IMG/VR virus record: IMGVR_UViG_3300044974_001280
Coordinates: 1 to 64,000 of that record
Direction: 5' to 3' (one strand)
Source of the DNA: a virus
DNA: 64,000 nucleotides
Shown: positions 1-15,453 of the stretch, piece after piece
Numbering within the stretch: position 1 is the first letter of the stretch
How the letters are laid out: the number at the start of each line of letters is the position of its first letter
Position numbers and translations under genes: made by a program
Notes under the pieces: generated by a model
Seen by the model: only the letters and a program-made list of their open reading frames with translations
What the model was told of the DNA's origin: nothing
The model's database searches: none

Positions 1-640
1 GGTTCGTCCGGAACCTCTGGTTCGAGTGGATCAAGTGGATCTTCCGGATCTTCGGGTTCTTCTGGATCCTCGGGCTCTTCGGGTTCATCTGGAACTAGAG
101 GGACTTCTGGAACCTCTGGTTCGAGTGGATCAAGTGGATCTTCTGGATCTTCGGGTTCCTCCGGAACAAGAGGAACTTCTGGAACCTCTGGTTCAAGTGG
201 CTCTTCTGGATCATCAGGCTCGTCTGGATCTTCGGGTTCTTCTGGAACATCCGGCTCGAGTGGTTCTTCTGGATCAAGTGGATCTTCGGGATCATCAGGG
301 TCTTCTGGTTCTTCTGGATCGTCAGGTTCTTCAGGAACCTCTGGTTCGAGTGGATCAAGTGGATCATCAGGATCCTCTGGCTCTTCTGGATCTTCGGGCT
401 CTTCAGGTTCATCTGGAACTAGAGGGACTTCTGGAACCTCTGGCTCTTCAGGATCTTCAGGCTCTTCAGGATCATCTGGCTCTTCAGGTTCCTCAGGATC
501 TTCAGGTTCCTCTGGAACTAGAGGGACTTCTGGAACCTCTGGCTCTTCAGGTTCATCTGGCTCTTCAGGGTCTTCAGGCTCTTCAGGTTCATCAGGAACC
601 TCTGGCTCCTCTGGAACCTCTGGTTCATCAGGAACCTCTG
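1..640 (+). repeat. Gly-Ser-Ser collagen-like triplet repeat
   Basis: This is a degenerate 9-base repeat encoding Gly-X-Y triplets, mostly GSS with interspersed GTS and GTR. Codon use varies among the Ser and Gly codons, so the amino acid pattern is conserved more strictly than the DNA. Phage fibres commonly carry collagen-like triple-helical shafts; here X and Y are Ser/Thr rather than Pro, giving a dense array of possible O-glycosylation sites. Confidence 0.85.
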
Positions 641-3600
641 GTGAATCTTTAACTATCAACGATAACATAGATAATTATGTTTTAACAGCAACGGGTTTAA
701 CTAATGTAATTCAAGGAGAATCCTTGTTAACATTTGATGGTTCACTACCATCTCCCTTTTTGAACGTAAATGGTGTACACGTTGGCCCAGGTGGTGGTAA
801 TTGTTCAACTAATATCGCTATTGGTGAGTGTTCTCTCTCAAGTAACACTACAGGAATTAAAAATGTTGCCGTCGGATTTGGAAGCCTTTATTCGAGTTCT
901 TTCGGAATTGCCAATGTTGCGGTAGGTTACACTGCCCTCTATAATTTTACATACCCTTCTGATTCTTCGACTGCTTCTTTGGCCGTTGGTTACAAAGCTC
1001 TTTGTTCTTCTACAAATGGTAGAAGTAACACTGCGGTTGGCACCAGATCTATGTTGTCAAATTCAACAGGAGAACGTAATACTGCTTTGGGGTCTGATTC
1101 CCTAATAAGTAACTTAACCGGGTGCTTTAACACAGCCGTAGGTTTTAAAAGTTTGTATAGCAACCTAGGAGGATCTGCTAATATAGCCATTGGTAATCAA
1201 TCTCAATATTCTAACATAAGCGGAAGCTCTAATGTTGCTATTGGCAATTCAGCTTTGTCTTCGAATGCCGGAAATGCTAATGTTGCTATCGGTCAATCCG
1301 CTTTATGCTCGCAGAATTTTGCCTCCGCCTCAAACACCGCCAATGTTGCAGTTGGATATTTTGCCATGGCCTTTAATACAACGGGAAGTGGTAACGTCGC
1401 CTTAGGTACCAGAGCTCTGTTGTGTAATACGACTGGAAATTTTAATACTGCGGTAGGAATCTCTGCTTTAGCAGCAAACAACACTGGTAAATACAACACA
1501 GCCTTGGGCAGATATTCTCTTCGGTGTAATACCTCAGGAAATTTCAATACAGCAGTAGGTTTAAATGCTCTTTTTGCTAACACAACAGGCGCAAGCAACA
1601 CCGCAGTAGGTATCAGTGCTCTTCGATGTAACACAATAGGCACATGCAACACCGCACTAGGTACATCTGCTCTTTATGATAACACAACAGGCTCAGACAA
1701 CACCGCAGTAGGTACAAATTCTCTTCGATTTAACACAACAGGCACAAACAACACCGCAGTAGGTACAAATTCTCTTCGATGTAACACAATAGGTATAAAC
1801 AACATCGCAGTAGGTTCAAGTGCTCTTTGTTTAAACACAACAGGCGTAAACAACACCGCAGTAGGTTATAATGCTCTTCGATGTAACACTTCTGGTTCTA
1901 GCAACACTGCAATAGGGACCAATTCTCTTTTGGTTAATGTAACCGGAAACTCCAACACAGCTCAAGGTTTTTATTCTCTAAGATCCAATACCACAGGGGG
2001 TAATAATACTGCAGTAGGAGCTAGCTCTCTTAGATGTAACATAACAGGAAAATATAACGTAGCAATTGGATCAGGTTCTCTTTGTTGTAATTTAACAACA
2101 AACGGGAGTGTTGCAATAGGTGTAAATGCTCTAAACTTAAACCTAGTTTCTTATAATACCGCCGTAGGTGCTTTTTCACAAAGGTGCACCTCTACAGGTA
2201 CGGAAAATGTTTCTGTAGGATCAAGCACTTTGTTCAATAACACGACTGGTTCAGGTAACACCGCAGTAGGTACAAATTCATTGTGTTCAAATGTATCCGG
2301 TTCAAACAACGTAGCAGTAGGTAGATCTTCTTTATTAACAAATACTACCGGCGGATTTAACACTGCTATTGGATTTGATGCATTAAGAAGTCAGAATTTT
2401 GGTTCAACCTCTACAACTGCCAATGTAGCAGTTGGTTATGGGGCGTTAAAAACAAATTCTACAGGCACAAATAATACAGCTATAGGTACACGTTCGCTGG
2501 AACAAAATGATGCTAATTTTAATACTGCGATAGGTGCATCCGCTCTTCGATGTAACACAACAGGAATACAAAATGTTGCTGTTGGGGCAGGTGTATTGCT
2601 TGTTAACACGGGAGGATGTAATAACTCTGCTGTGGGTTTCTATGCTCTAAGATCAAATACAACAGGAGCCCTTAACACCGCAGTAGGTCAACGTGCTCTT
2701 TATTGTAACACAACAGGCTTAAATAACACCGCAGTAGGTAGCTCTTCTTTATTAACAAATACTACCGGCGGATTTAACACTGCTATTGGATTCCATGCAT
2801 TAAGAAGTCAAAATTTTGGTTCAACCTCTACAACTGCCAATGTAGCAGTTGGTTACAGAGCTTTAACAGTTAATACCACTGGTTGTTGCAATACAGCCTT
2901 AGGTAATAGATCTTTTCAAGCTAATACAATTGGAAACACTAATGTGGCCGTAGGATCTGATAGTTTATTTTCCAGCGTTTCAGCTAACAATAATGTGGCA
3001 GTGGGTATCAATACCCTCCGTAGTAATCTATCGAACGGTAACTTGGTTGCCGTAGGAGCAAATGCCCTTTGTTGTAATTGTGCTGCTAATAATGTGGCCG
3101 TTGGAGCTTTTGCTATGAGATATACCACAACAGGAACAGGGGTAGCTATTGGGTTCCAGGCACTAAGAGATAATGTAACTGGTGCCAATAATGTTGCTAT
3201 CGGTGCTAACGCGATGCGAGATAACAAAGGAGCTAATAATAACGTAGCAGTTGGATATCAAGCTCTCTTTTGCACAACGGGTTCTTCGAACGTTGCACTT
3301 GGCTTTTGTTCTCTAAGAAATAACCAAATCGGGGTCCACAATGTAGGAATAGGCTGCAATGTACAACTTCAAAATATATCAGGAGATAGAAATATAGCTG
3401 TAGGTACACTATCTCTTTCTTGTAATACCACCGGTAACTCGAATGTGGCAATAGGCTATCAATCTTTAAGAAATTCAAACTTCGGTTCCATCTCCACTAC
3501 TGCCAACGTGGCCGTGGGTTACTGCTCATTGGCATGTAATTGTATCGGAAATTCTAATGTAGCAGTTGGAACGAGAACTCTTATTAGCAATCAAACAGGT

Positions 3601-4878
3601 TCTTTTAATACTGCCATTGGGGCAAACGCCCTGAGATCTTTTGCCCCGACCCTCCCTGACACTGTTGGCAACACCGCTGTTGGAGCTTTCGCCTTAGAAA
3701 TCACAACCACAGGAGAAGGAAACGTGGCGGTGGGAAGCAATGCCTTAGATTCGAACGTCGTCGGTAATTTCAATGTGGCCATCGGAACATTCACCTTGTC
3801 CAATCAAAACTTTGATTCTGCCTCCAACACCGCTAATGTGGCGGTGGGTTACAGAGCTTTGGACTCTAATACAACAGGATGCTGGAACACAGCTCTGGGT
3901 ACCCGAGCTCTTGCTTCCAACACAACGGGTTGCGGAAATACGGCGGTGGGTTTAATGTCGCTTTTATGTAACACTTTTGGTAGTTTCAATACTGCCGTTG
4001 GTAATTGTACTTTAATAAGTAACACCACCGGGATTTGGAACACTGCTGTTGGAATGTGTAGTCTCACATGCAACACAACTGGTTGTAACAACACCGCTAT
4101 TGGGGTTGGTGCTCTTTTCTGTAATACAGGAGGGAATAGGAATGTTGCTATCGGTATAAATTCTTTATACTTTAACACTACAGGTTGCGAAAACGTTGCA
4201 GTTGGAAGTTATTCTTTAAAATGTAATAATTCGGGCATTAACAACATTGCAATTGGGATCTCATCTTTATGCCAAAATGAAAATGGTTTCCAAAATATCG
4301 CAATTGGAAACACGTCTCTCTTTTCTAACACAATTGGCTATAGAAATACTGCAGTAGGAAACTTGACATTAGGTTGTAATGTTACTGGTCGAGGTAACAC
4401 AGCAATAGGTCATTCTGCTCTTGGATGTCAAAACACAGACACCACAGGTTCTAACGCCAACGTAGGGGTTGGTTATGGAGCTTTAGAGTGTAATATAACA
4501 GGGAAGTGCAACACAGTAGTAGGCACATTCGCGGGTAGATGTAATCTTGCCTCGGGTAACACTTTTGTGGGCATCATGGCCGGCGCATCTGGCGGCACGG
4601 GCGCTTGCAACACCGCTATTGGAGCATGTGCCATGAGCACTAACTTGACAGGCAGTAGCAACGTAGTGGTAGGATTTAACCAACAAGCATGCAACCGAGT
4701 AGGTGTTTCCATGATTGGAGTGGGTGACACAGCCACCGGTAACAACCAGATGAGATTTGGAAGTACCACAGTAAACAACGGAGAAGTGGTAATGACTCCG
4801 TTATCTGTAGAAGGTTACTGGAAAGTCTTCATAAACGGTACAGAATATTGTTTATTATTACATTCAGGAGGGGTCTAA
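1..4878 (+). CDS. Giant tail fibre / adhesin-like virion protein, 5'-truncated by the window edge
   Basis: The frame is open from base 1 to the TAA at 4876-4878, so the start lies upstream; a TTG at 724 is only an internal codon. Bases 1-640 encode a collagen-like run of Gly-X-Y triplets, almost all GSS or GTS, with a GTRGTS block four times (91, 163, 415, 514). After a short linker come about 1300 residues of a 17-residue repeat of the form NTAVGxxSLxxNTTGxx, resembling YadA-type head or beta-solenoid repeats. Many repeats carry Cys just before the NTTG (LRCNTTG, LYCNTTG). The last ~60 residues are non-repetitive and may form a tip. No chaperone or lectin domain is recognised. The next genes form a glycan island, making this protein a plausible glycosylation target. 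Fibre assignment is inferred from composition and context. Confidence 0.75.
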   Translation, partial: GSSGTSGSSGSSGSSGSSGSSGSSGSSGSSGTRGTSGTSGSSGSSGSSGSSGSSGTRGTSGTSGSSGSSGSSGSSGSSGSSGTSGSSGSSGSSGSSGSSGSSGSSGSSGSSGTSGSSGSSGSSGSSGSSGSSGSSGSSGTRGTSGTSGSSGSSGSSGSSGSSGSSGSSGSSGTRGTSGTSGSSGSSGSSGSSGSSGSSGTSGSSGTSGSSGTSGESLTINDNIDNYVLTATGLTNVIQGESLLTFDGSLPSPFLNVNGVHVGPGGGNCSTNIAIGECSLSSNTTGIKNVAVGFGSLYSSSFGIANVAVGYTALYNFTYPSDSSTASLAVGYKALCSSTNGRSNTAVGTRSMLSNSTGERNTALGSDSLISNLTGCFNTAVGFKSLYSNLGGSANIAIGNQSQYSNISGSSNVAIGNSALSSNAGNANVAIGQSALCSQNFASASNTANVAVGYFAMAFNTTGSGNVALGTRALLCNTTGNFNTAVGISALAANNTGKYNTALGRYSLRCNTSGNFNTAVGLNALFANTTGASNTAVGISALRCNTIGTCNTALGTSALYDNTTGSDNTAVGTNSLRFNTTGTNNTAVGTNSLRCNTIGINNIAVGSSALCLNTTGVNNTAVGYNALRCNTSGSSNTAIGTNSLLVNVTGNSNTAQGFYSLRSNTTGGNNTAVGASSLRCNITGKYNVAIGSGSLCCNLTTNGSVAIGVNALNLNLVSYNTAVGAFSQRCTSTGTENVSVGSSTLFNNTTGSGNTAVGTNSLCSNVSGSNNVAVGRSSLLTNTTGGFNTAIGFDALRSQNFGSTSTTANVAVGYGALKTNSTGTNNTAIGTRSLEQNDANFNTAIGASALRCNTTGIQNVAVGAGVLLVNTGGCNNSAVGFYALRSNTTGALNTAVGQRALYCNTTGLNNTAVGSSSLLTNTTGGFNTAIGFHALRSQNFGSTSTTANVAVGYRALTVNTTGCCNTALGNRSFQANTIGNTNVAVGSDSLFSSVSANNNVAVGINTLRSNLSNGNLVAVGANALCCNCAANNVAVGAFAMRYTTTGTGVAIGFQALRDNVTGANNVAIGANAMRDNKGANNNVAVGYQALFCTTGSSNVALGFCSLRNNQIGVHNVGIGCNVQLQNISGDRNIAVGTLSLSCNTTGNSNVAIGYQSLRNSNFGSISTTANVAVGYCSLACNCIGNSNVAVGTRTLISNQTGSFNTAIGANALRSFAPTLPDTVGNTAVGAFALEITTTGEGNVAVGSNALDSNVVGNFNVAIGTFTLSNQNFDSASNTANVAVGYRALDSNTTGCWNTALGTRALASNTTGCGNTAVGLMSLLCNTFGSFNTAVGNCTLISNTTGIWNTAVGMCSLTCNTTGCNNTAIGVGALFCNTGGNRNVAIGINSLYFNTTGCENVAVGSYSLKCNNSGINNIAIGISSLCQNENGFQNIAIGNTSLFSNTIGYRNTAVGNLTLGCNVTGRGNTAIGHSALGCQNTDTTGSNANVGVGYGALECNITGKCNTVVGTFAGRCNLASGNTFVGIMAGASGGTGACNTAIGACAMSTNLTGSSNVVVGFNQQACNRVGVSMIGVGDTATGNNQMRFGSTTVNNGEVVMTPLSVEGYWKVFINGTEYCLLLHSGGV
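2326..2437 (+). repeat. Segmental direct repeat, copy 1 (copy 2 at 2743-2854)
   Basis: About 110 bases encoding SSLLTNTTGGFNTAIGF and the following expanded unit recur 417 bases downstream with only a few substitutions (for example gatttgatg versus gattccatg). This is far more similar than other units and indicates a recent internal duplication or gene conversion. Confidence 0.85.
2743..2854 (+). repeat. Segmental direct repeat, copy 2
   Basis: This is the second copy of the 110-base block at 2326-2437, offset by 417 bases and in the same reading frame. The interval is a whole number of codons (139), so recombination between copies would remove or add 139 residues without breaking the frame. 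Confidence 0.85.
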
Positions 4879-4942
4879 AAATTAACTTAACAAAATACTT
4901 GAAGTTGAAGGAACACTCTTGATTAATTGAGATAAAAAAAAG

Positions 4943-5599
4943 GTGAAAAAAGTACTCATCGGAACCCCATCCTACGACGGTCGAATTGACACCTGGTTTG
5001 CAGATTCTCTAGTAAGAACTATTAAACAGGCAGACCCCAAACTGATAAACATTCACGCCATTTATCCTTCATATGATTCTCTGGTCCAAAGGGCTAGAAA
5101 CGATCTGGTCAGAATGGCAATGGATGGTGGCTATGACACCCTCTTTTTTATTGATTCCGATGTGGAGTGGGAACCCGAATGGTTTTTTAGATTTTTGGCC
5201 AGACCTGAACCGATCGTGGGAGCAGCCTTGATCAAAAAATCTGATCAAGAGTCCTATACGGTCAAGATCATAAAAAAGAATCTGACCAAATCCGAGGATG
5301 ATGTATTAGTTCAGGTAGATGGTTTAGGAACAGGTTTTCTAAAGGTGGACCGATTTGCCTTGGAAAAACTCTGGTTGATGAGTGAACCTTACGTCCACGA
5401 CGGAGTTCCCAATCGGATGGTTTTTGATTTGAAGATTGTGGATGGTGATTTGATCTCCGAGGATTACGTCATGTGCCACAAATGGCAAAGTTTAGGCTAC
5501 AAAGTGTGGCTGGATCCTAGCATCACCATCAATCACAACGGGGTGAAAAAATATCAAGGCAACTTGTCCTCCTTCCTTCAAAGAAATGGCTATGTTTGA
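4943..5599 (+). CDS. GT-A fold glycosyltransferase
   Basis: This 218-residue protein resembles GT-A (GT2-like) glycosyltransferases. The N-terminus MKKVLIGTPSYDGR is a typical first strand of the nucleotide-binding fold, and FFIDSDVEW at about residues 68-76 supplies the D-x-D metal and nucleotide-sugar motif. The sequence DGLGTGFLKV at about 127-136 fits the acceptor side. Translation starts at a GTG 65 bases after the fibre gene without a clear Shine-Dalgarno sequence. The end overlaps the next glycosyltransferase by 14 bases, implying translational coupling. It probably acts in the cytoplasm on a fibre or glycan acceptor; donor sugar and acceptor cannot be read from sequence. Confidence 0.75.
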   Translation: MKKVLIGTPSYDGRIDTWFADSLVRTIKQADPKLINIHAIYPSYDSLVQRARNDLVRMAMDGGYDTLFFIDSDVEWEPEWFFRFLARPEPIVGAALIKKSDQESYTVKIIKKNLTKSEDDVLVQVDGLGTGFLKVDRFALEKLWLMSEPYVHDGVPNRMVFDLKIVDGDLISEDYVMCHKWQSLGYKVWLDPSITINHNGVKKYQGNLSSFLQRNGYV

Positions 5600-6512
5600 A
5601 AAACCTATGGGTGGCACCGAACTGATGTTCGAAGAATTGAAAAGAAGATTACCTGATTCTGTTTGGGGTAATTACTCCATTTTTAATTATCTTCCCCAAG
5701 CTGATTTTACCAAAAAGACTATTTACTGGAATCAGCTTTCCTGGGATCAACAGGCGGTTCAATTTCTAAAGGATCGGGATCTGGTGGAAAAAATAGATCA
5801 TTTCGTCTTCGTCAGCCACTGGCAGGCGGAGCAATTCAGACAGAGGTACAATATTCCTGGTTATAAGACCCATGTCCTAAAGAATGCCTCTCTCGGAGTG
5901 GAAACCAGACCTGTAGGTCCCCGATCTATCGTCAAATTGTGTTACACTTCCACCCCTTGGAGAGGACTAAATGTTCTTCTGCGAGCCTGGGAAATACTTC
6001 AGCCCCAGAATTGTGAACTCCACGTCTTTTCTTCCTGCCACATTTACGGTCCAGAATTCGGTAAATCTGATGCCCAATACGCAACCTTATACGAAAAGTG
6101 CCGAACCACTCCTGGTATAGTTTATAGGGGCTCTATTCCCAATCCACAGCTAAGAGGGGAGTTACCGAATTTCGATCTGTTGGCCTACCCCTGTACCTTC
6201 GAGGAAACCTCCTGTATCGCCGTCATTGAATCTCTATCCGCCGGTTTAAGGGTTGTTTGTTCCAACCTGGGTGCCCTGCCTGAAACAACAGAGGGCTGGG
6301 CTCGGCTGTACCCTTATCTCATGGATCCCGAAACCCACGCCCGCAGATTTTCAAAAATTCTGAGTTCAGAAATAGAAAAGGTCAGAGACGGCGGTTGGGA
6401 TTCTTCTTTACAAGCTGTCCATTATTCTCGGGGTTGGAGTTGGGACGAGAGAATAAAAGAATGGGTCGATTTTTTTCATCAATTGGCGAATGAACTGGAC
6501 GAAAATTTTTGA
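5586..6512 (+). CDS. GT4-family glycosyltransferase (GT-B fold)
   Basis: This is a 308-residue GT-B glycosyltransferase lacking part of the usual N-terminal domain. VFVSHWQAEQF at about 73-83, the C-terminal domain starting near IVKLCYTSTPWRG, and EETSCIAVIE near 206-215 (the E-x7-E nucleotide-sugar signature of GT4) support the family. It overlaps the upstream GT-A gene by 14 bases and the downstream methyltransferase by 23 bases, so all three are likely one translational unit. A second ATG lies two codons in. At ~310 residues it is shorter than typical ~370-residue GT4 enzymes, as often seen in phages. Confidence 0.8.
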   Translation: MAMFEKPMGGTELMFEELKRRLPDSVWGNYSIFNYLPQADFTKKTIYWNQLSWDQQAVQFLKDRDLVEKIDHFVFVSHWQAEQFRQRYNIPGYKTHVLKNASLGVETRPVGPRSIVKLCYTSTPWRGLNVLLRAWEILQPQNCELHVFSSCHIYGPEFGKSDAQYATLYEKCRTTPGIVYRGSIPNPQLRGELPNFDLLAYPCTFEETSCIAVIESLSAGLRVVCSNLGALPETTEGWARLYPYLMDPETHARRFSKILSSEIEKVRDGGWDSSLQAVHYSRGWSWDERIKEWVDFFHQLANELDENF

Positions 6513-7104
6513 AAAAATTCAACCTCAGACCTTTTTGGACATTGGAGCCAACGAAGGTAATTTTACCTCTACCCTTTTAAAATTTTATCCTGACTGCAAG
6601 TGTCTGATGGTAGAGCCCAACCCAGCTTGCCGTCCCTTCTTAGTTTCGATCGGTCACCCTTTTGAGATCGTTGCTGTTTCTGGCTCTAACGGTAAGGGTC
6701 TTCTTCATGTTGAAAACTCTAACTCTTTGGCAACAGGTGCTTCTTTGTACAAAGAAAACACTCAATTTTATGCCCCAGGAAAATCACACCAGACAGAAGT
6801 TCAATTGATTACCTTGGATTCTTTGAACCCTTTTCCTAACACCGAGATAGATCTCATTAAGATTGACACACAAGGGTCTGAATTGGACATTTTAAAGGGC
6901 GGGAAACTAACGATTCAACGCACAAAATTTCTCTTGCTGGAAGTATCTCTCTTAGAATATAATTTAAATGCTCCTTTGATAGATGAAGTTCTTGATTGGA
7001 CTTCTGCACACAATTTTAACTTATGTGAGATTGTAAATTATCACCGGCTAGCTAATAATCAAATATTTCAGCTAGATGTTTTATTGATGAGATCTAGCAT
7101 CTGA
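6490..7104 (+). CDS. FkbM-family methyltransferase
   Basis: This 204-residue protein has the class I SAM-binding motif FLDIGANEGNFTSTLL near residues 15-30 and the FkbM signature IDLIKIDTQGSELDILKGG near 117-135. FkbM enzymes O-methylate sugars and related hydroxyls. It starts inside the end of the GT4 gene. In this island it most likely caps or modifies the glycan. A fragment of a second methyltransferase-like frame follows at 7116-7286. Confidence 0.82.
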   Translation: MNWTKIFEKIQPQTFLDIGANEGNFTSTLLKFYPDCKCLMVEPNPACRPFLVSIGHPFEIVAVSGSNGKGLLHVENSNSLATGASLYKENTQFYAPGKSHQTEVQLITLDSLNPFPNTEIDLIKIDTQGSELDILKGGKLTIQRTKFLLLEVSLLEYNLNAPLIDEVLDWTSAHNFNLCEIVNYHRLANNQIFQLDVLLMRSSI

Positions 7105-7115
7105 CCTGATATCTT

Positions 7116-7286
7116 GTGATTTACAATTTTAAATATTCCAACTACAATTCAAGGGGAGCAGTAATTGACTATCTAAAAGAAAACAATTTCGGCCGATCTA
7201 TAGACGTTGGAGCTTCCATGAATGGCTGGTCAAAAGATTTCACGACTCATTATGATGTATCCTGGTAAATGATGATTTAGATTAAG
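7116..7286 (+). pseudogene. Possible truncated methyltransferase remnant
   Basis: A 56-codon frame opening with GTG at 7116 encodes a protein containing RSIDVGASMNGWSKDF, which looks like SAM-binding motif I of a methyltransferase and then stops at 7284-7286. No downstream motifs follow, and a late promoter for the next gene begins within 20 bases. I read it as the decayed 5' end of a second methyltransferase gene in the island. A real small gene cannot be excluded. Confidence 0.4.
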
Positions 7287-7304
7287 AAACAATTCTAATT
7301 TTTG

Positions 7305-7312
7305 ATATATAG
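7305..7312 (+). promoter_or_regulatory. Late promoter element (GATATATA)
   Basis: This octamer resembles the T4 late -10 box TATAAATA. It ends 15 bases before the ATG at 7328. It is flanked by a weak imperfect dyad (ATTTTTG and CAAAAT). Confidence 0.6.
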
Positions 7313-7327
7313 TAACAAAATAATCTT

Positions 7328-7684
7328 ATGGCAAATACACTTTTGTTTGGAAAAATAAGTCCTGTTTTGAGTGTACCACAACAAGCAAATCAATTCAGTC
7401 AAAATATCACTTTTTTAACGGCCGATTATATGGCCGCTATCGCTGATCCATATCCTCTCGGAGCGACACAAGTCAACTTTTCTGTCCTATACGGTAACTG
7501 TCAGTTCAATGAATCTAACGAAATTATAGGATTTACGACCCTCTCTAGATCTGGGATCAATCTATCAGGTTCAGTGATCCAAAGCTGGGGTGTTGATGAC
7601 AAGGTTGTTCTAAATGCTATTGCATCTGCTCAAGGAACATCTATAGTTTCGACCCAAATTGGAACAGTGGATTCTTTTTTCTAG
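7328..7684 (+). CDS. Hypothetical small protein with its own late promoter
   Basis: The 118-residue product is unrecognised. It begins MANTLLFGKISPVL and is rich in Ser, Thr, Asn and Gln with alternating hydrophobics, suggesting a soluble beta-rich virion or fibre-associated protein. There is no signal peptide or membrane segment. A GATATATA late promoter element ends 15 bases before the ATG, so it is expressed with structural genes even though it sits inside the glycan island. A fibre accessory or tip protein is possible but unproven. Confidence 0.6.
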   Translation: MANTLLFGKISPVLSVPQQANQFSQNITFLTADYMAAIADPYPLGATQVNFSVLYGNCQFNESNEIIGFTTLSRSGINLSGSVIQSWGVDDKVVLNAIASAQGTSIVSTQIGTVDSFF

Positions 7685-7704
7685 TTTTTTTAAATTTCTG
7701 ACCT

Positions 7705-8526
7705 TTGGTTCAAAAAATCTTTTACAACAGTTCAATGCCCAGAGCAGGGTCTACTCTGATCCAAAATATACTGGGTCAGAATCCTCTTATTTACCCAACT
7801 CCAACCTCTGGTGTTTTCGAGATGCTCGCCGGGGCTAGAACAATTTTCACAGATGGTATAGAATTTAAAGCTCAATCGGAACAGGAAATGCTGGAGGGGT
7901 TTAAAGGATTCTTGAAAGGGGGACTTTATGGATTCTATAACAATATTACAGATAAACCTTACGTGATGGAAAAGTGTCGGGGCTGGAATTCGGAATGGGA
8001 GTTTGTGAATGCCTTCGATCCCAATCCAAAGATGATCTGTATGATTAGGGATATTAGGGCGGTCTATGCTTCTTTAGAAAAGAAATTCAGACAACATCCC
8101 CTTTTGGATCATCATCTAGCCAACTGGGGTAATTTGTCTGGAACTACCACCGATAAAAGGATCCAGGTTTGGTCGACTTCTCCGCCTATTGGTCCTTCCA
8201 TGGATAGAATCTACCAAGTTTTGGTCCAAGGGTTGCACGAAAAAATTCTGTTTGTTAAATTTGAAGATCTCTGTCGGGATCCAGAGTTTCAGATGAAAAG
8301 AATTTATGAATATCTCGATCTTGAATTTTTTCATCATGATTTTTACAACATTCCACAAATAACCAAAGAAGACGACCGGTGGTACGGTATTTTTGGAGAT
8401 CACGTCATTAGAAAGGAATTAAAGCCAGTGAGGGATGATTTCAGAGAAGTTTTAGGAACTAATGCCTGTAAATTAATTGAGGACAGCTATGCCTGGTTTT
8501 TTAACGATTTCGAATATCAAAGATGA
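7705..8526 (+). CDS. Sulfotransferase (PAPS-dependent family)
   Basis: This is a 273-residue sulfotransferase-like protein. MPRAGSTLIQNIL near residues 11-23 matches the 5'-phosphosulfate-binding loop, and MIRDIRAVYASLEKK near 113-127 matches the 3'-phosphate-binding segment. The C-terminal half has the usual KFEDLCRDPEFQMKRIYEYL helix region. A TTG start at 7705 is chosen because the first beta strand (KIFYNSS) precedes the only nearby ATG at 7735. It would transfer sulfate from PAPS to a hydroxyl, probably of a sugar given the neighbours. An APS kinase gene two genes downstream could supply PAPS. Confidence 0.78.
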   Translation: MVQKIFYNSSMPRAGSTLIQNILGQNPLIYPTPTSGVFEMLAGARTIFTDGIEFKAQSEQEMLEGFKGFLKGGLYGFYNNITDKPYVMEKCRGWNSEWEFVNAFDPNPKMICMIRDIRAVYASLEKKFRQHPLLDHHLANWGNLSGTTTDKRIQVWSTSPPIGPSMDRIYQVLVQGLHEKILFVKFEDLCRDPEFQMKRIYEYLDLEFFHHDFYNIPQITKEDDRWYGIFGDHVIRKELKPVRDDFREVLGTNACKLIEDSYAWFFNDFEYQR

Positions 8527-9542
8527 AGGTAGGATATAAAACTTCTTCTGAAATCCAGATCTCTCCCGAGCAAAAAGGAGAGATGAATTTACCCAAAGCG
8601 ACTGCCCGTAATTCAGACACAATAGTATCAATAATCACACAACAACAACAGTCCATGGAACATAAATATTTAGTTTGGCACATCGAAGGAGGTTTGGGTA
8701 AAAATGTTGCGGCTACTTCTCTTCTTTTACCCCTGGTAGAGAGATATCCCGAGAGAAAAATAATTGTGGTGGCTTCTTACCCTGAGGTTTTTTTAAACAA
8801 TCCGAACATCTATCGAGTTTATCGAGTTGGTATGACACCGTATTTTTATGACGATTACATTTTGGGTAAGGACACTTTAGTTTTTCGGCAAGAGCCTTAT
8901 TTTCAAAGCGGGCATATTCTGAAACAGAAACATCTGATTCAAAATTGGGCGGATCTTCTAGGATTAGATCTGGTTCAAAATCCTCTGCCTGATTTGAGAT
9001 TTAATATGGTTCAAAGCCAATTAACGAGCAATTGGAAAAGGGAAAGACCCATCTGTCTTATTCAAACAAACGGAGGACCCTTAGAAAATCAAGCCTACAC
9101 CTATGCCTGGACCCGAGATATTCCTATCGATTGGGCAATCTATCTGGCCAACAAGCTTTCCGACGTGTACCACATCATACAGGTCACTAGACCAGGTTCT
9201 CCTCAAATTCCCGGAGCTGAAGTGATTACTTCTCACTTGACCTCCTCTGATCTTTTTTCGCTCCTCAAAATGTCGGAAAAAAGAATTCTGATCGATTCTT
9301 GTCTCCAGCACGCCGCGGCAGCCTTCGGACTTCATGCTTTTGTTTTTTGGATAGGAACATCACCTGAGAACTTTGGTTACGGCTTGCATACTAACATCAA
9401 AGCCCTCCCACCTACAGGACAAACAAAGATGGTGGACTCTTATCTCTTCGATTATTCTTTTGACGGCGTTCTACACGAATGCCCCTATCAAAACGTGAAT
9501 GATATGTTTGATCCCACCCACTTAGAACAGATCTTTGTATGA
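8523..9542 (+). CDS. GT9-like (heptosyltransferase-type) glycosyltransferase
   Basis: This 339-residue protein carries a GT9-like pattern. YLVWHIEGGLGKNVAATSL near residues 49-67 matches the N-terminal nucleotide-binding loop, and IDSCLQHAAAAFGLHAFVFW near 259-278 matches the C-terminal donor-binding segment of ADP-heptose:LPS heptosyltransferases. The first ~44 residues are low-complexity and atypical. An in-frame ATG at 8655 (MEHKYLVWH) would give a 295-residue protein starting at the conserved strand and may be the true start. The annotated ATG overlaps the sulfotransferase stop. Heptose or another ADP/GDP sugar is the likely donor by family resemblance only. Confidence 0.65.
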   Translation: MKVGYKTSSEIQISPEQKGEMNLPKATARNSDTIVSIITQQQQSMEHKYLVWHIEGGLGKNVAATSLLLPLVERYPERKIIVVASYPEVFLNNPNIYRVYRVGMTPYFYDDYILGKDTLVFRQEPYFQSGHILKQKHLIQNWADLLGLDLVQNPLPDLRFNMVQSQLTSNWKRERPICLIQTNGGPLENQAYTYAWTRDIPIDWAIYLANKLSDVYHIIQVTRPGSPQIPGAEVITSHLTSSDLFSLLKMSEKRILIDSCLQHAAAAFGLHAFVFWIGTSPENFGYGLHTNIKALPPTGQTKMVDSYLFDYSFDGVLHECPYQNVNDMFDPTHLEQIFV

Positions 9543-10000
9543 TCTATTGGTTTACCGGTCAGCCGGGGGCTGGAAAAACAACCCTGGCCAAAGCTTTGAA
9601 GGAGACTTTGGAAATGCAAAACTCGAAAGAGGTAATGCACATTGATGGGGATGATATTCGATCCATCTTTAACAACACAGATTACAGCAGAGCTGGACGA
9701 GAAAAAAACATTCAATTAGCTCAACAGATTTCTCATTTTTTATCTATCAAGGGTCTGGATGTTGTGGTTAGTCTGGTGTCACCTTATTTGGAACAGAGAG
9801 AAGAGTTCAAAAAAAGGATGGGCTCCTCCTTGCAAGAAATTTACGTGCACACAACTGAAATCAGAGGCAGAGAAAAATTCCACGTCGAAGACTACGAAAA
9901 ACCTGAAACTAATTTTATTGAAGTAGATACTACTAATACTTCTATCATCTCAAGTCTAAATCAATTCTATGACCAAAAAATTTTCCCTTTTCATCGGTAG
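9539..10000 (+). CDS. cysC: Adenylylsulfate (APS) kinase, CysC-like
   Basis: This 153-residue P-loop kinase begins MIYWFTGQPGAGKTTLAKAL, with Walker A at residues 7-14. HIDGDDIRSIFN near 34-45 matches the APS-kinase DGDxxR signature, and VVVSLVSPYLEQRE near 75-88 matches the ISPxxxxR-type region. The late FHVEDYEKPETNFIEVDT segment also fits CysC. The enzyme phosphorylates APS to PAPS, the donor for the sulfotransferase at 7705. Length is somewhat below the usual ~200 residues. It overlaps both neighbours, so it is part of one operon. A related but different small-molecule kinase is the main alternative. Confidence 0.75.
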   Translation: MIYWFTGQPGAGKTTLAKALKETLEMQNSKEVMHIDGDDIRSIFNNTDYSRAGREKNIQLAQQISHFLSIKGLDVVVSLVSPYLEQREEFKKRMGSSLQEIYVHTTEIRGREKFHVEDYEKPETNFIEVDTTNTSIISSLNQFYDQKIFPFHR

Positions 10001-10325
10001 GTGGCAGCCTTTACACGAGGGACATAAACATATTTTTAATGAGAGATTAAAATTAGGTAAGAATGTCTGGATAGCTATTCGAGATGTTACGCCCGATGAA
10101 AACCAACCCTGGACTGCTTCAGAAATCAAAGACAATATAGAAAAAATTTACTCTCGGGAAATCTCGGAGGGAAGGATTATTGTTACCATAGTTCCTGATA
10201 TTGAATCTATTAACTATGGTAGAGGAGTAGGCTATGAGATTATAGAACACGTGGTCCCAGCTGAAATTGCTTCTATTTCTGCTACCAGCATCAGAGAACA
10301 GATGAGAAAAGAAGGAACTTTATAG
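9969..10325 (+). CDS. HIGH-motif nucleotidyltransferase (NadM/cytidylyltransferase-like)
   Basis: This 118-residue protein has FIGRWQPLHEGHKHIF near residues 8-23, the G-R-x-Q-P-x-H-x-G-H nucleotide-binding motif of NMN-adenylyltransferase-like and cytidylyltransferase enzymes. SISATSIREQMRK near its C-terminus is the matching ISxTxIR motif. It overlaps the APS kinase by 32 bases. It would transfer AMP or CMP to a phosphorylated substrate. In context it could make APS, a nucleotide-activated sugar such as ADP-heptose, or NAD. The sequence does not decide between these, and it is not a canonical ATP sulfurylase. Confidence 0.65.
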   Translation: MTKKFSLFIGRWQPLHEGHKHIFNERLKLGKNVWIAIRDVTPDENQPWTASEIKDNIEKIYSREISEGRIIVTIVPDIESINYGRGVGYEIIEHVVPAEIASISATSIREQMRKEGTL

Positions 10326-10334
10326 ATATAAAAC

Positions 10335-10607
10335 ATGAACCAAGAATCTAAACTAACACCAGAAGAGTTAGAAAAAATCATCACTCTTAGAGACAGCATT
10401 AGAACCAATGTTGAAAAAATTGGCAAGATGAACATCCAAAAATACTTCCTTCAAAAGGAACTGGATTTTGTCAATGAACAATTGTCTGCCCTTTATGACG
10501 AAAGCATGACCCTGTCAGAGCAGGAAAAGGCATCGATTCAAGAAATTGTTACAAAATACGGCGAGGGTCAATTAGATTTCTCAACAGGAGTTTACTCTAA
10601 GTCATAA
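10335..10607 (+). CDS. Hypothetical small helical protein
   Basis: The 90-residue product starts MNQESKLTPEELEKI and is predicted almost wholly alpha-helical and charged, with a heptad-like pattern (KIGKMNIQKYFLQKELDFV). It lies 9 bases after the nucleotidyltransferase and 2 bases before a glycosyltransferase, hence is cotranscribed with the island. A GATATAAA sequence immediately upstream is a weak late promoter variant. No family is recognised; a small coiled-coil adaptor is possible. Confidence 0.6.
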   Translation: MNQESKLTPEELEKIITLRDSIRTNVEKIGKMNIQKYFLQKELDFVNEQLSALYDESMTLSEQEKASIQEIVTKYGEGQLDFSTGVYSKS

Positions 10608-10609
10608 AG

Positions 10610-11674
10610 ATGACTCCAGTAGAGGTTCTCAGAAGTACCAAAAGGCATCTATTAAAATCCCTGTGGGAAGTTCAAAAGGCACTGGATGAAGCTACCAATT
10701 CACAATTGAGAATTCTTTACGTGGCCCCTCATCTTTCTACAGGAGGTATGCCACAGTACCTATATAAACTCATTGAAATTTTCAATACCCAGGCGGATGT
10801 TTACTGTTTAGAATACAGCAACATCTCTGACGAGTACGTCGTGCAAAGAAACAAAATTCAAAAATTACTAGGCAGCAGATATTACCGGATAGACGATCAC
10901 GAGGACAAGAGTCAGTTTTTGCAAATTCTAGACGAGATCTGTCCAGATGTCATTCATTTTCAAGATTTTGTAGAATTCTTTTTGGATAGGAAAATCTGCG
11001 AACACGTCTATGCCTACAATCGGCCCTGGTACATCATGGAAACCCCTCACTCTTCGGCCAATGTACCGAGTGACAAATATTGGTTACCTGACAAACTAGT
11101 TATGGTCAATCAGTGGATGGCGGATAAATTTTCCGACTGTGGCATTCCGACCGATGTTTTAGAATACCCTATTGAGCATTTTGAAAGAAGAATCTCCCGA
11201 TCAGAAGCCCAAGGAATCCTGGGTTTAGACCCTGGAAAGAAACACGTTATCAATGTCGGTCTTTTCACTCCGGGAAAAAATCAAGGTGAACTGATATCCT
11301 TTGCTAGCCAGATGTTGGATTTGCCCGTTGAGTTTCATTTCATCGGCAACACGGCAGTTAATTTTCAAGAATATTGGCAGCCTCTCGTTTCAAATCTTCC
11401 TGAAAACTGTCGTGTGTGGGGAGAAAGAGGGGACGCCGAAATTTTTTATCAAGCGGCAGATCTGTTTGTTTTTAATTCAACTTGGGAACTGAATCCAATT
11501 GTTATTAAAGAATGTCTTTCTTGGCAACTTCCGATCCTCATGAGACGTCTGACCTCATACGGTGATTTCTACGACACTGATCCCTTAGTAACTTATTTAG
11601 AAGAAGGAACTACAGGCTTGGATTTTGAAACAAATCTTGATAGACTAAAAAATTTAGTGCAGCCAGAATCATGA
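10610..11674 (+). CDS. GT4-family glycosyltransferase (GT-B fold)
   Basis: A 354-residue GT-B enzyme. After a 30-residue helical lead, LRILYVAPHLSTGGMPQYL near residues 33-51 is the N-terminal nucleotide-fold entry with the G-G loop of GT4 enzymes. INVGLFTPGKNQGELI near 204-219 opens the donor domain, and ELNPIVIKE near 293-301 is the E-x7-E donor motif. It starts 2 bases after the preceding small gene and overlaps the heptosyltransferase gene by 4 bases. Acceptor and donor are unknown. Confidence 0.8.
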   Translation: MTPVEVLRSTKRHLLKSLWEVQKALDEATNSQLRILYVAPHLSTGGMPQYLYKLIEIFNTQADVYCLEYSNISDEYVVQRNKIQKLLGSRYYRIDDHEDKSQFLQILDEICPDVIHFQDFVEFFLDRKICEHVYAYNRPWYIMETPHSSANVPSDKYWLPDKLVMVNQWMADKFSDCGIPTDVLEYPIEHFERRISRSEAQGILGLDPGKKHVINVGLFTPGKNQGELISFASQMLDLPVEFHFIGNTAVNFQEYWQPLVSNLPENCRVWGERGDAEIFYQAADLFVFNSTWELNPIVIKECLSWQLPILMRRLTSYGDFYDTDPLVTYLEEGTTGLDFETNLDRLKNLVQPES

Positions 11675-12855
11675 AAAACAGAGGTATCAAAGTTTACACC
11701 GAGGTAATCAGACAGAAAAAATCCAGAGTTCCTGATCAAACGGGTTTTGTATTCACCTTTGATTATGGACCAAAAGTGGTGATGAGTGGTAATAATCCAG
11801 AGCTCAAAAGAACCGTTAAGTTTTGGGACAAAAAAAATTCTAAATACGAGTATATTGGTGAAATACAGCCTGGTCTTTTTACAACTTTGTTTAGAAAATG
11901 GTATACCCCCTGGGTAGCTGAAATTTTTGATGGAGAAGAAAAGATTTGGTCGTATGATTTCGAGGAAAATCTCAAGGGCCAAAAAATTTTAGTATCTATT
12001 GACAGTGCCTCTATAGGAGATACTCTAGCCTGGATGCCTGTTATAGCTAAATTTGGTCAAAAGCACGAAGCTGAACTACTGGTCAGTACTTTTTGGAATC
12101 CTCTTCTATCTAATTTTTTTGAGAGCATTCAATTCGTAAATCCTGGCTATCGTCATCCCTCCATTCACAGCATTTTCGGAATTGGTTGGTACGAGGAGGA
12201 CGATAGATACAAACACCCCAGAGATCCAAGAACCATTTCTCTCCAGCACGTGGCTTCGGATCTTCTAGGGATCGAAGAGACCTCAGAATTGCTGATGCCT
12301 AACATCTCAGCCCAACTGGGATCTCAGCCTCGTCCTATCGAAGAAAAATATGTTTGTATAGCAACTGAATCGACAGCTAACGCAAAACATTGGCACTATC
12401 CTGGAGGATGGCAAGAGATAGTTAATTATTTAAGAGAACTCGGTTACAAGGTTGTAGTAATTCATGAACAAGCCAACAGATTAGAAAATGTAGAGGATCG
12501 CACTGGTTCAATTGATCTTTGGGAAAGAATGGTAATGCTGCATCACGCAGAGTTTTTTATTGGGATAGGGTCTGGAATTTCTTGGTTGTCCTGGGCGGTG
12601 AACGTTCCTGTCGTCATGATCTCTGGATTTTCTCTCCCTTTTTGTGAATTTTCCACCCGAAATTATCGGGTGATAAATCCCCATGTGTGTCACGGATGTT
12701 TCAACGATCCAAGATTTAAATTCGATAAAGGAGACTGGAACTGGTGTCCTAAATTAAAAAACACGGAGAGAATTTTTGAGTGTACGCGTCAGATCACTCC
12801 TGGAATGGTTAAAGAGGCCATTCACAATCTAATTCAAGATATTTCTCAGGGCTAA
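11671..12855 (+). CDS. Autotransporter strand-loop-strand O-heptosyltransferase (TibC/Aah-like)
   Basis: This 394-residue protein matches the BAHT family, which O-glycosylates Ser in beta-solenoid autotransporters. Evidence includes SIDSASIGDTLAWMPVIAKF near residues 110-129, VSTFWNPLLSNFF, ATESTANAKHWHYPGGWQEI near 230-249, and GIGSGISWLSWA near 292-303. A four-Cys cluster (CHGC, then WCP and FEC) near 337-370 resembles the iron finger of TibC. The first ~90 residues form the extra N-terminal beta domain typical of this family. The gene ends the island and overlaps the GT4 gene. The obvious candidate substrate in the window is the repeat fibre at 1-4878. Homologues use ADP-heptose. Confidence 0.82.
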   Translation: MKNRGIKVYTEVIRQKKSRVPDQTGFVFTFDYGPKVVMSGNNPELKRTVKFWDKKNSKYEYIGEIQPGLFTTLFRKWYTPWVAEIFDGEEKIWSYDFEENLKGQKILVSIDSASIGDTLAWMPVIAKFGQKHEAELLVSTFWNPLLSNFFESIQFVNPGYRHPSIHSIFGIGWYEEDDRYKHPRDPRTISLQHVASDLLGIEETSELLMPNISAQLGSQPRPIEEKYVCIATESTANAKHWHYPGGWQEIVNYLRELGYKVVVIHEQANRLENVEDRTGSIDLWERMVMLHHAEFFIGIGSGISWLSWAVNVPVVMISGFSLPFCEFSTRNYRVINPHVCHGCFNDPRFKFDKGDWNWCPKLKNTERIFECTRQITPGMVKEAIHNLIQDISQG

Positions 12856-12866
12856 TAATTTCTAGG

Positions 12867-12874
12867 GATATATA
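12867..12874 (+). promoter_or_regulatory. Late promoter element (GATATATA)
   Basis: This is an exact copy 29 bases before the structural gene at 12904, followed by a leader hairpin. It separates the glycan island from the virion operon. Confidence 0.65.
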
Positions 12875-12875
12875 G

Positions 12876-12901
12876 GAAACGATGCTAAATAAAATCGTTT
12901 C
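12876..12901 (+). promoter_or_regulatory. Leader hairpin before the 12904 gene
   Basis: GAAACGAT (12876-12883) pairs perfectly with ATCGTTTC (12894-12901) around a 10-base AU-rich loop. It lies between the late promoter element and the ATG at 12904, so it would form at the 5' end of the late transcript, two bases before the start codon. It could modulate translation or stabilise the RNA. Confidence 0.45.
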
Positions 12902-12903
12902 TT

Positions 12904-15453
12904 ATGTCCATTGTTCCTCCTAATAAAGCTCCCTTTGAAGGTTTACCTGTCTACAATGGCAATGGCAAACAATTAAACATTACTGACCCCAGATATGCAT
13001 ATCAGGATAATCTCCCTAACACGGAGAAGGTAGTAGATTCTAGTACCAATAACCTTTACAGCACAATCGATGCAGCTACGGCTAGAGCCATTCAGATAGG
13101 ATGTAACGGACACCACGTTGTTTTAGGCAGCGATGGTGTTTATTACTATGCTCCCTGTGCTACTGAAACCTGGTTGGTAGAAAGACTTGAACAATTAGAC
13201 AGTGCTCTCAACTTCACCTATATTGGAAACTATCGGGTTTTAAGCTGGGATGCTCCTTTCTATTATGTCAATTCTTTTGATGGCTGGATCATAGATACGG
13301 CGGGTGCTGTTAATGCCTATCCCATTAACTTGGATACAGTCTCCAATGCACAGATCACCAATGACATTGCTATAGATTTTAGATATTCGGTGGACGGAGA
13401 GACATGGTCCTTGTGGGTACCAGTTGGAACAGCACTGACCGGTTACAATAAATCTTCCACTTCGGGGGAAAAAGCCGAGATTTTTTCCATTCCTCTTAAT
13501 CCAACTAAACCTTTCTATCCAGAATTTAGATTTACTTCGGTGGTGGTAAATCAGGATGGCACTATTGCCTATTCCACCGATCAGCCAATCGATCCCAGTG
13601 TAGTAATAGTTTCTTTTGATCTTGATTTGACATATAATACCAATGTAGTGGATGGACCTGATAAGTTGGTGATCCGCAATCCTGTCCCTCAATGTTCTCC
13701 CGAAAAATCAAATCGGCCAGTTGTTTTTAACGAATGTGGTCCCTTCACTTTTCAGCCCTACAACATTAACAAGGCGATCAATTTGTATCAGGATTTGAGC
13801 TTAATAGTCAACCGGATGTTTGGTTTTGAAACTAATTACTATTCGGTGCAACCACAGTCTAGATCCAAGGACGTTATTCTTAAGGAATGGACTTTATTTG
13901 ATGTGGTAGAGGAAAAATGTGTCAAGGTCATGGTTCCCCAGAATCAGTTCCCAGACAATAAGGTGAACTACGATCCCTTTGGTATTTCTTTTGAAGAGCC
14001 CTTTGAAGTTCATATCGACAAAATTTATTTCGAATCCCTTTTCGGAAGAGGATCCCAGCCCCGAAAGAGGGACATCATTTATTTTCCTTTAACCAATAGG
14101 ATCTATGAAATAAACTCAACCTACCTGTTCAGAGATTTCATGTACTCCCCTGTTTATTTCAAATTGGAACTCAAAAAGTACAACCCAAAATCAAATACTT
14201 ATTTCAGAGATCCTGCCTACAAGGAAGAACTGGATGGTATAGCGATCAACTCCCAAGAGCTTTTCGGTCAAGAAACAACCTCGCAAGAAGAACAGATCAC
14301 AAAACCTCAACAGTACGTCACAACCACCAATGAAAGGGGTATAGATCCAACTCGGGGTTATGTCTATCAGAATTTACCTATCATCAACTACGAATTGAAC
14401 AACAACTGGACCATTATTTTAAACCAGTATTACGACCTGAACGATGCCTTTTTGACGGACAGCAATTTTCAATTCGAACCCAACAAATACCGCAATGCGG
14501 TCAGATACAGAGTTGCTCCAAAACTGGATTCAAACGGAGAAATTGCTTATTCTTCTTGGTTTAGCCTCAAAAATTACGTCAACGAGAATTCATTGACTAA
14601 AAAACCATTCCCCCCGTTGGCAATGGTGAAAGAAGGTGAAACCGAGTCTAGAATAGTTTACAATACCTATCCCTACAAACACGGCTTGAGCGTCTGGAGA
14701 GGATTCGATTCTAACCCGGAGGGCTATGTGGCCATTAAATCTGATGCCAACCACAGTGGAGGATTTATGGTCTCTTCGGTCATAGATCCGTATAAATTTT
14801 CAGTGGTTAATCCCAATACTCCTTTCTCTCAGGGAACAACCCCTCTCAAAATGCAGAAGGCACAGGCCCGAAATTTAATTTCGGCAGATCTCATCAATAG
14901 TATAGGTCAACTAGAGGGTTTTAGGATCGACCTGATCCATTCGGGAGTTCAGGAACCTGGTAACACCAATTTCATTCAAGAAGGGTCGATTCAGATTTAT
15001 CTCAATTCTTTAACCTATAATTCCAAACTCCAATTCGTTCCCCAACTGGGAGACTGGTACGGGGTAGTAGTGAATATTTCTAATAAGTACCAACAAATGT
15101 CTATCAACATTTGGGGCTTATCCTATGATCCCAATAATCCACAAGAACAAACTTCTGAATTAATCCCTCTCCATCAGGATTTTGTGGCTTTAACCCAAAC
15201 CTACACCTTCGATTTACCCAGACAAATAGTAGAAGATGTAGCAAATCCTCTTTATGGCACCAATAATAACAGTTATCGTATTTACACCTCTCCGCTGTTG
15301 TTAAGCAACATCAGAATTTTCAATTCCATGATCGATATAGATAAACAATCGATTGTCCTGAACCAGAATGTGGTCAGAGATTCTCAGTTAGCCCAGATCA
15401 TCGACAACGCCAAACCAACCTTAGCTATTCCTAAAATTTTGAGAAAGGGGTAG
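12904..15453 (+). CDS. Large virion structural protein, neck/baseplate type (contains gp14-like segment)
   Basis: This 849-residue protein has no signal or membrane segment. A central region around residues 340-430, including RKRDIIYFPLTNRIYEIN, resembles the segment of T4-like neck protein gp14 and baseplate proteins that reads D-x-I-Y-F-P near the middle. The rest, rich in Asn, Tyr and Pro, looks beta-structured; a C-terminal domain near 680-800 resembles a concanavalin-like fold by hydrophobic pattern only. It has its own late promoter 29 bases upstream and precedes the terminase genes, where T4 places genes 13-15. Structural role is likely; exact identity is uncertain. Confidence 0.55.
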   Translation: MSIVPPNKAPFEGLPVYNGNGKQLNITDPRYAYQDNLPNTEKVVDSSTNNLYSTIDAATARAIQIGCNGHHVVLGSDGVYYYAPCATETWLVERLEQLDSALNFTYIGNYRVLSWDAPFYYVNSFDGWIIDTAGAVNAYPINLDTVSNAQITNDIAIDFRYSVDGETWSLWVPVGTALTGYNKSSTSGEKAEIFSIPLNPTKPFYPEFRFTSVVVNQDGTIAYSTDQPIDPSVVIVSFDLDLTYNTNVVDGPDKLVIRNPVPQCSPEKSNRPVVFNECGPFTFQPYNINKAINLYQDLSLIVNRMFGFETNYYSVQPQSRSKDVILKEWTLFDVVEEKCVKVMVPQNQFPDNKVNYDPFGISFEEPFEVHIDKIYFESLFGRGSQPRKRDIIYFPLTNRIYEINSTYLFRDFMYSPVYFKLELKKYNPKSNTYFRDPAYKEELDGIAINSQELFGQETTSQEEQITKPQQYVTTTNERGIDPTRGYVYQNLPIINYELNNNWTIILNQYYDLNDAFLTDSNFQFEPNKYRNAVRYRVAPKLDSNGEIAYSSWFSLKNYVNENSLTKKPFPPLAMVKEGETESRIVYNTYPYKHGLSVWRGFDSNPEGYVAIKSDANHSGGFMVSSVIDPYKFSVVNPNTPFSQGTTPLKMQKAQARNLISADLINSIGQLEGFRIDLIHSGVQEPGNTNFIQEGSIQIYLNSLTYNSKLQFVPQLGDWYGVVVNISNKYQQMSINIWGLSYDPNNPQEQTSELIPLHQDFVALTQTYTFDLPRQIVEDVANPLYGTNNNSYRIYTSPLLLSNIRIFNSMIDIDKQSIVLNQNVVRDSQLAQIIDNAKPTLAIPKILRKG

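Follow-up and report, generated by a model that had tools for sequence, protein, structure and literature searches.

Why should a virus carry, immediately behind the gene for a long repeat-built fibre, a run of genes for enzymes that assemble and decorate glycans? The locus that raises this question lies in IMG/VR virus record IMGVR_UViG_3300044974_001280, of whose 230,445 bases the first 64 kb were analysed (hereafter the window). Family searches of the window recovered genes for a portal, a large terminase, a sheath and a T4-type neck protein, indicating a T4-like myophage. One strand carries, in order, the fibre gene (1-4878), an enzyme operon (4943-12855), and the genes for gp14, terminase and sheath. 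The initial annotation proposed that the phage glycosylates, methylates and sulfates its own fibre, with an enzyme of the BAHT family (TibC/Aah-type protein O-heptosyltransferases) among those responsible, perhaps so as to tune adsorption or to escape recognition by host or grazer. We consider it probable, from comparative sequence analysis, that the operon serves to glycosylate the virion, and that its BAHT heptosylates a (Gly-Ser/Thr-Ser)n stalk in the fibre encoded next to it. The features central to this proposal are as follows.

1..648, plus strand: Ser/Thr-rich (Gly-X-Y)72 stretch of the fibre, the candidate BAHT acceptor (composition, codon analysis).
649..4878, plus strand: remainder of the fibre, NxAVG units and a C-terminal domain (matches to virion structural and tail spike families of PHROG).
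10610..11674, plus strand: glycosyltransferase of family GT4, constantly paired with the BAHT (PF00534, 35.6 bits; pairing across relatives).
11671..12855, plus strand: BAHT, a TibC/Aah-type protein O-heptosyltransferase (TIGR04414, TibC match, key residues).

The product of the gene at 11671 scores 300.4 bits against TIGR04414, the autotransporter O-heptosyltransferase equivalog (cut-off 200), and 24 bits against the model of lipopolysaccharide (LPS) heptosyltransferase I; its only relative in the PDB is TibC (4rb4, E 4e-64). Residues of TibC known from mutation to be important are Asp110, Lys230, Trp305 and the iron-finger cysteines 339, 342, 358 and 370 (PMC4358343). Equivalents of Asp110, Lys230 and Trp305, as well as of the sugar-binding Thr226, are invariant in all 44 distinct phage BAHTs, and so are the four cysteines of the iron finger (C340, C343, C359 and C371 in the window protein). 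With the cut-off passed and both catalytic and iron-finger residues kept, the name BAHT is upheld, and the enzyme is predicted to be a heptosyltransferase for protein rather than for LPS. The window protein also keeps the sugar-binding Arg286. The stereoselectivity site (Pro300 in TibC) is Gly or Ser in phage BAHTs, and for this reason we predict no preferred heptose epimer.

The fibre gene is open at the start of the record, which begins inside the open reading frame (ORF). Its first 216 residues, the stalk, form 72 uninterrupted G-X-Y triplets with Gly at every third residue, matching the collagen family PF01391 at 102.6 bits in a Pfam search, and contain 121 Ser, 18 Thr, 4 Arg and 1 Glu. 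Position X is Ser (74%) or Thr (25%) and position Y is Ser (94%), the latter encoded by TCN and AGT codons alike. With no Pro in 216 aa, the stalk is not a collagen of the kind rich in Pro or hydroxyproline.

It is the company kept by BAHT genes elsewhere that points to this stalk. A scan of genome contigs returned 0 matches with a single BAHT sequence and 467 relatives with an alignment as query, and BAHT relatives are encoded in 190 viral stretches. The records surveyed are fragmentary, the sets compared number 40 each, and the related phages among them are not fully independent. Most BAHT loci contain G-X-Y stretches that are 70-99% Ser/Thr with nearly no Pro (S/T-rich GXX hereafter); in an unbiased scan, about a tenth of viral collagen-like proteins reach 60% Ser/Thr. 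By our own count of BAHTs clustered at 70% identity, S/T-rich GXX lies within 10 kb of the BAHT in 17 of 29 clusters and anywhere in the record in 21, the other 8 being represented for the most part by contigs that are short or break off next to the BAHT. A comparison independent of the BAHT set 40 long viral records with S/T-rich GXX (picked by a Gly-Ser/Thr-Ser/Thr DNA pattern, two of them by measured composition instead) against 40 with other collagen-like GXX: a BAHT over the cut-off is encoded in 24 of the former and in none of the latter (Fisher 3.9e-10, or 3.2e-9 without three records also found through their BAHT). The contrast persists among records of at least 60 kb (about 22/29 against 0/23, again our count), and record size therefore does not explain the association. 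The distance from BAHT to GXX gene (median 7.4 kb) is also shorter than random placement would give (combined P 1e-5).

The same pairing recurs in bacteria. In a phylogenetic tree, all phage BAHTs and a few environmental bacterial ones form one clade (100/100), and BAHTs neighbouring autotransporter repeats form a separate clade opposite it. Each of the five nearest chromosomal gammaproteobacterial BAHTs (our loci L424-L427 and L429) adjoins a gene for a small protein with a (GTS)n or (GSS)n stalk, and a lipobox is recognisable in these stalk proteins at four of the five loci; at the three loci with ORFs listed (L424, L425 and L429), the genes around them otherwise resemble ordinary bacterial ones. 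In a cellular setting far removed from that of the phages, this branch of the enzyme thus appears, on sequence grounds, to be paired with the same repeat. Two loci with GXX from metagenome-assembled genomes (L448 and L466) were set aside as candidates for bacterial examples and read as phage contigs instead. As a separate observation, the BAHT of (GTS)n gammaproteobacterial loci is preceded by a conserved gene for a protein of some 280 aa (L424:6958-7800, L425:3612-4457 and L429:7012-7842). The proposal that the phage glycosylates its own fibre accordingly gains support from three sides: the enzyme is of a protein heptosyltransferase family, it is encoded within the structural module, and it is found together with one particular type of fibre sequence in many viruses and in bacteria. 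More tentatively, and with some doubt, we suggest that this separate BAHT branch may serve generally to O-heptosylate low-complexity (Gly-Ser/Thr-Ser)n stalks, both on the fibres of many large aquatic phages and on small bacterial lipoproteins; glycosylation instead of proline hydroxylation would then make such proline-free chains stiff or protected.

A possible contribution to the heptose donor is encoded further along the window.

38753..39751, plus strand: heptose-7-phosphate kinase, HldA-like (TIGR02198, E 1.7e-90; likeness to E. coli HldE).

We call this kinase HldA-like and not HldA because its score against TIGR02198 (303 bits) falls below the curated cut-off of 345; other sugar kinase models reach 58 bits at most, and the protein is 35% identical to the N-terminal kinase domain of E. 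coli HldE and keeps the GAGDT motif. Of 15 sampled relatives with the stand-alone operon, 14 have a gene for it, four of these matches being weaker and shorter. HldA as a universal BAHT partner was considered and rejected, since none of the 25 records outside the stand-alone GT4-BAHT operon has more than a weak match to the kinase. The gene stands directly behind the second of two adjoining portal-like genes (35507-37111 and 37117-38742), which are 52% identical across 503 residues. Orthologues of this second gene (68-89% identical) immediately precede the HldA-like kinase in eight related records, so the portal-like duplication seems to be old and to have been kept.

Several observations weigh against heptosylation of the stalk by the BAHT. 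In 15 of the 40 S/T-rich GXX records a BAHT is absent at any score. Four relatives within the lineage of the window (L023, L026, L028 and L047) have (GAQ)n and not (GSS)n at the visible end of the fibre despite their BAHT: either the rule admits exceptions, or the acceptor lies elsewhere than in that end. The equivalent of Arg286 is Arg in 23 and Thr in 17 of the 44 phage BAHTs. The preference for Ser at position Y was tried as proof of the acceptor and discarded, as codon-class and Ser-at-Y tests gave equal results in records with and without a BAHT. Homologues of GmhA, GmhB and HldC were not found in the phage with E. coli queries; with no other gene for ADP-heptose synthesis found, the host would have to supply the remaining steps. 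Part of the association itself might stem from common descent, or from an abundance of glycan genes of all kinds in these phages. Phages with S/T-rich GXX are indeed rich in glycan genes: FkbM, taken as a control, is enriched as well (20/40 against 5/40 records with other GXX), but less than the BAHT, whose link is sharper.

From the gene content, the family membership of the BAHT, its conserved catalytic residues and its association with S/T-rich GXX proteins, we infer a pathway whose acceptor serines, glycan structure, order of steps, expression timing and function are predictions. Late in infection, in the cytoplasm and before or during virion assembly, the BAHT would move heptose from ADP-heptose onto hydroxyls of stalk serines. 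Such an acceptor fits the finding that TibC modified Ser but not Thr in TibA, the use of a soluble nucleotide sugar with no lipid carrier, and the position of the operon among virion genes. The paired GT4 (10610) and the transferases at 4943, 5586 and 8523 would then extend the glycan; the FkbM enzyme would cap it with methyl and the sulfotransferase with sulfate, the sulfate donor 3'-phosphoadenosine 5'-phosphosulfate (PAPS) coming from the kinase and nucleotidyltransferase pair; and the HldA-like kinase would raise the supply of ADP-heptose. As to what the glycan does, a Pro-free GXX chain should form a poor triple helix, and our preferred guess is for this reason that it stabilises or shields the stalk, with tuning of adhesion as the next.

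The extending and capping steps depend on the cassette between the fibre and the GT4-BAHT pair.

4943..5599, plus strand: probable GT-A glycosyltransferase (GT2, 14.8 bits, below cut-off; PHROG 1574; DSD motif).
5586..6512, plus strand: GT4 glycosyltransferase (PF13692, 37.7 bits).
6490..7104, plus strand: FkbM-type methyltransferase (PF05050, 75.5 bits; TIGR01444).
7705..8526, plus strand: sulfotransferase (PF13469, Sulfotransfer_3, 57.7 bits; PAPS-binding motifs PRAGST and RDIRAVYAS seen).
8523..9542, plus strand: putative enzyme of the GT9 fold, heptosyltransferase-like (fold match; the relative at 13910 of L086 passes PF01075).
9539..10000, plus strand: APS-kinase-like P-loop kinase (PF01583, 76.9 bits; TIGR00455, 80 against a cut-off of 138.7).
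9969..10325, plus strand: small HIGH-type nucleotidyltransferase (PF01467, CTP_transf_like, 26 bits).

Pfam family matches back the names first given to both GT4 enzymes, the FkbM methyltransferase, the sulfotransferase and the nucleotidyltransferase. Other names hold in part: the GT-A call at 4943 has its visible DSD motif in favour, but the GT2 score lies below the cut-off; the GT9-like call at 8523 has its predicted fold and the L086 relative, but the protein itself gives no family match in family searches (its low-confidence model, pLDDT 56, matches GT9, WaaF, TibC and WaaC in Foldseek, E 1.6e-8 to 1e-5); and the APS kinase call at 9539 passes Pfam but misses the NCBI equivalog cut-off. 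The nucleotidyltransferase at 9969 is possibly an ATP-sulfurylase-like partner of this kinase.

The kinase and its neighbours leave room for a reading in which the fibre is decorated, but the sulfotransferase, kinase and nucleotidyltransferase make some other activated group; it concerns the capping step only and is compatible with heptosylation of the stalk. There is precedent in the Cj1415-type 'APS kinases' of Campylobacter capsule loci, which make another activated group, and in the window the second half of the 9539 kinase diverges and the 9969 protein has its top NCBIfam score with nicotinamide mononucleotide adenylyltransferases. Against this, the sulfotransferase keeps its PAPS motifs and travels with the kinase-nucleotidyltransferase pair in the window, L408, L086 and L088, and the L408 orthologue of the nucleotidyltransferase matches ATP-sulfurylase (PF01747, E 9e-4), so that we regard another activated group as a real but unlikely alternative to sulfate. 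The set of sulfotransferase, kinase, nucleotidyltransferase and GT9-fold enzyme is an exchangeable module: it recurs beside BAHT loci of the unrelated phages L086 and L088, and in L408 without an adjacent GT4-BAHT pair, that record having its BAHT elsewhere. Cassette content also varies among members of the window's lineage (DUF6445 protein, GT2, sulfotransferase). We put forward sulfation and methylation of the glycan on the fibre conditionally, since the genes for both are part of this exchangeable cassette. DUF6445 proteins (L034:3499-4077, by Pfam) and look-alikes (L042:7406-7981 and L033:2138-2722), seen in the variable cassette beside (GSS)n fibres, are possible further modifying enzymes.

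The surroundings of the cassette bear on a second alternative. The order and positions given in the initial annotation (the fibre, then 4943, 5586, 6490, 7705, 8523, 9539, 9969, 10610 and 11671-12855) are correct, and ORF coordinates bear out its account of enzyme genes on the same strand, mostly overlapping (by 4-32 bases, with gaps at 7105-7327 and 12856-12903). Three further genes complete the region, the first two of which it had passed over.

7328..7684, plus strand: uncharacterised 118-aa protein (no family match in Pfam, PHROG and NCBIfam searches).
10335..10607, plus strand: conserved 90-aa protein, part of the structural module (upstream of GT4-BAHT, or of gp14 where those are absent).
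12904..15453, plus strand: neck protein, gp14 / head closure Hc2 (family searches).

With gp14, the terminase at 16409 and the sheath at 18153 behind it, the island lies within the structural module. T4-type late promoters TATAAATA were found nowhere near it, the whole window holding 1 match, below chance expectation. Within the lineage of the window the order is fibre, variable cassette, 90-aa gene, GT4, BAHT, gp14, 300-aa gene, terminase and sheath, and it holds across divergent phages whose BAHTs are 42-60% identical. Host-recognition islands of pelagimyophages and cyanomyophages, running from VrlC to gp14, occupy the same slot and likewise hold tail fibres and glycosyltransferases; they are read as LPS modification in the parts of that account consulted, which do not note a link between BAHT and S/T-rich GXX (PMC7029224). 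By analogy, the enzymes of the window might modify host LPS or O-chain against superinfection, the fibre adjoining them merely through a shared hypervariable host-recognition island that extends from the baseplate genes to gp14; several of the island's glycosyltransferases are of generic types for which lipid-linked sugars are conceivable substrates. We think this improbable, since the BAHT falls in the protein-acceptor branch and not with WaaC/WaaF, and tracks a specific fibre sequence type over unrelated viruses and again in bacterial chromosomes.

The last alternative concerns the other part of the fibre. Its remaining 1409 aa hold 69 N-x-A-V-G units spaced mostly at 17 aa (the NTAVG repeat), with many Ser/Thr and 58 N-x-S/T sequons; a Foldseek search with the fold model of this part (pLDDT 60) gave no significant PDB match, and the fibre sequence matched neither solved structures nor NCBIfam autotransporter repeat models. 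The repeat occurs in few BAHT loci only (the window, L013-L015/L044, the L065 group and L366), and the comparison suggests that the constant partner of the BAHT is the (Gly-Ser/Thr-Ser)n stretch and not this repeat. That the acceptor is the repeat, as an autotransporter-like beta-solenoid, is a part of the original idea that needs correcting. In its favour, the passengers that BAHTs are known to modify are beta-helical, potential sites abound in the repeat, and an NxAVG fibre lies close to the BAHT in the L065 group. Most BAHT loci, however, have S/T-rich GXX without the repeat, and together with the missing matches this makes such an acceptor very unlikely.

Beyond the lineage of the window, the BAHT is found as the C-terminal domain of glycosyltransferase fusions of 700-1450 aa; a GT4 relative is encoded nearby, as is a large GXX fibre. 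Such fusions occur in a 735-kb metagenomic phage and in the isolated Microcystis phage Mel-JY01 (PP395634), which also holds the pair of BAHT and S/T-rich GXX. The Mel-JY01 fibre ORF is unannotated and open at both record ends (L002:1-3052, L506:7738-10001), and its GXX part (606 aa) is overlain by an antisense 'hypothetical protein' (739-2298); gene callers easily miss repetitive fibres of this kind. Other observations concern record G000. Two further proteins at 110968-114562 (L005) carry ordinary Pro-rich collagen (GPQGPVGPQG...), so that this phage has both kinds of GXX; by eye, a second glycan-looking cluster with GT2-like and sugar-aminotransferase-like proteins lies at 169859-181964 (L008), and a Prohibitin/SPFH-looking membrane protein at 194434-195294 (L009); and three tandem minus-strand paralogues, with starts VKHLQSFSLFEARKT, lie at 147039-149936 (L007).

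If heptosylation of the stalk by the BAHT is borne out, a specific enzyme and its acceptor could be named for the glycosylation of phage fibres, and a family of protein glycosyltransferases that is known from autotransporters involved in virulence would gain a new class of acceptor; (G-[ST]-S)n together with a BAHT would be a signature predicting glycosylated virions in environmental phages. That phage virions can be glycosylated is already known; what would be new is a BAHT that acts on GXX stalks, a search of open-access papers on phage, collagen and heptosyltransferase (most subscription journals and all bioRxiv preprints lying outside this coverage) having returned nothing on the pair. In mycobacteriophages, phage-encoded glycosyltransferases likewise decorate virion proteins, at the C-termini of capsid and tail-tube proteins (Freeman et al. 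2023, cited in PMC12619734); that account describes neither a BAHT nor a collagen-like fibre. The mimivirus enzyme L230, a fusion of hydroxylase and glycosyltransferase, places glucose on hydroxylysine of viral collagen (reviewed in PMC4691112) and is likewise a virus enzyme that glycosylates the virus's own collagen-like protein, but in a virus of amoebae; the system described here is a bacteriophage one, with Pro-free and Lys-free repeats and probably heptose on Ser. Also close are TibC of enterotoxigenic and AAH of diffusely adhering E. coli (TIGR04414, PMC4358343), with which the phage BAHTs have in common the sequence family, the catalytic Asp, the Lys at the beta-phosphate, the four-Cys iron finger and, as predicted, Ser acceptors. 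Unlike these, the phage BAHTs are phage-encoded, form a clade apart, are often fused to GT4 or FkbM domains, have Gly or Ser in place of Pro300, and are partnered by a (G-S/T-S)n stalk rather than by the strand-loop-strand passenger of an autotransporter.

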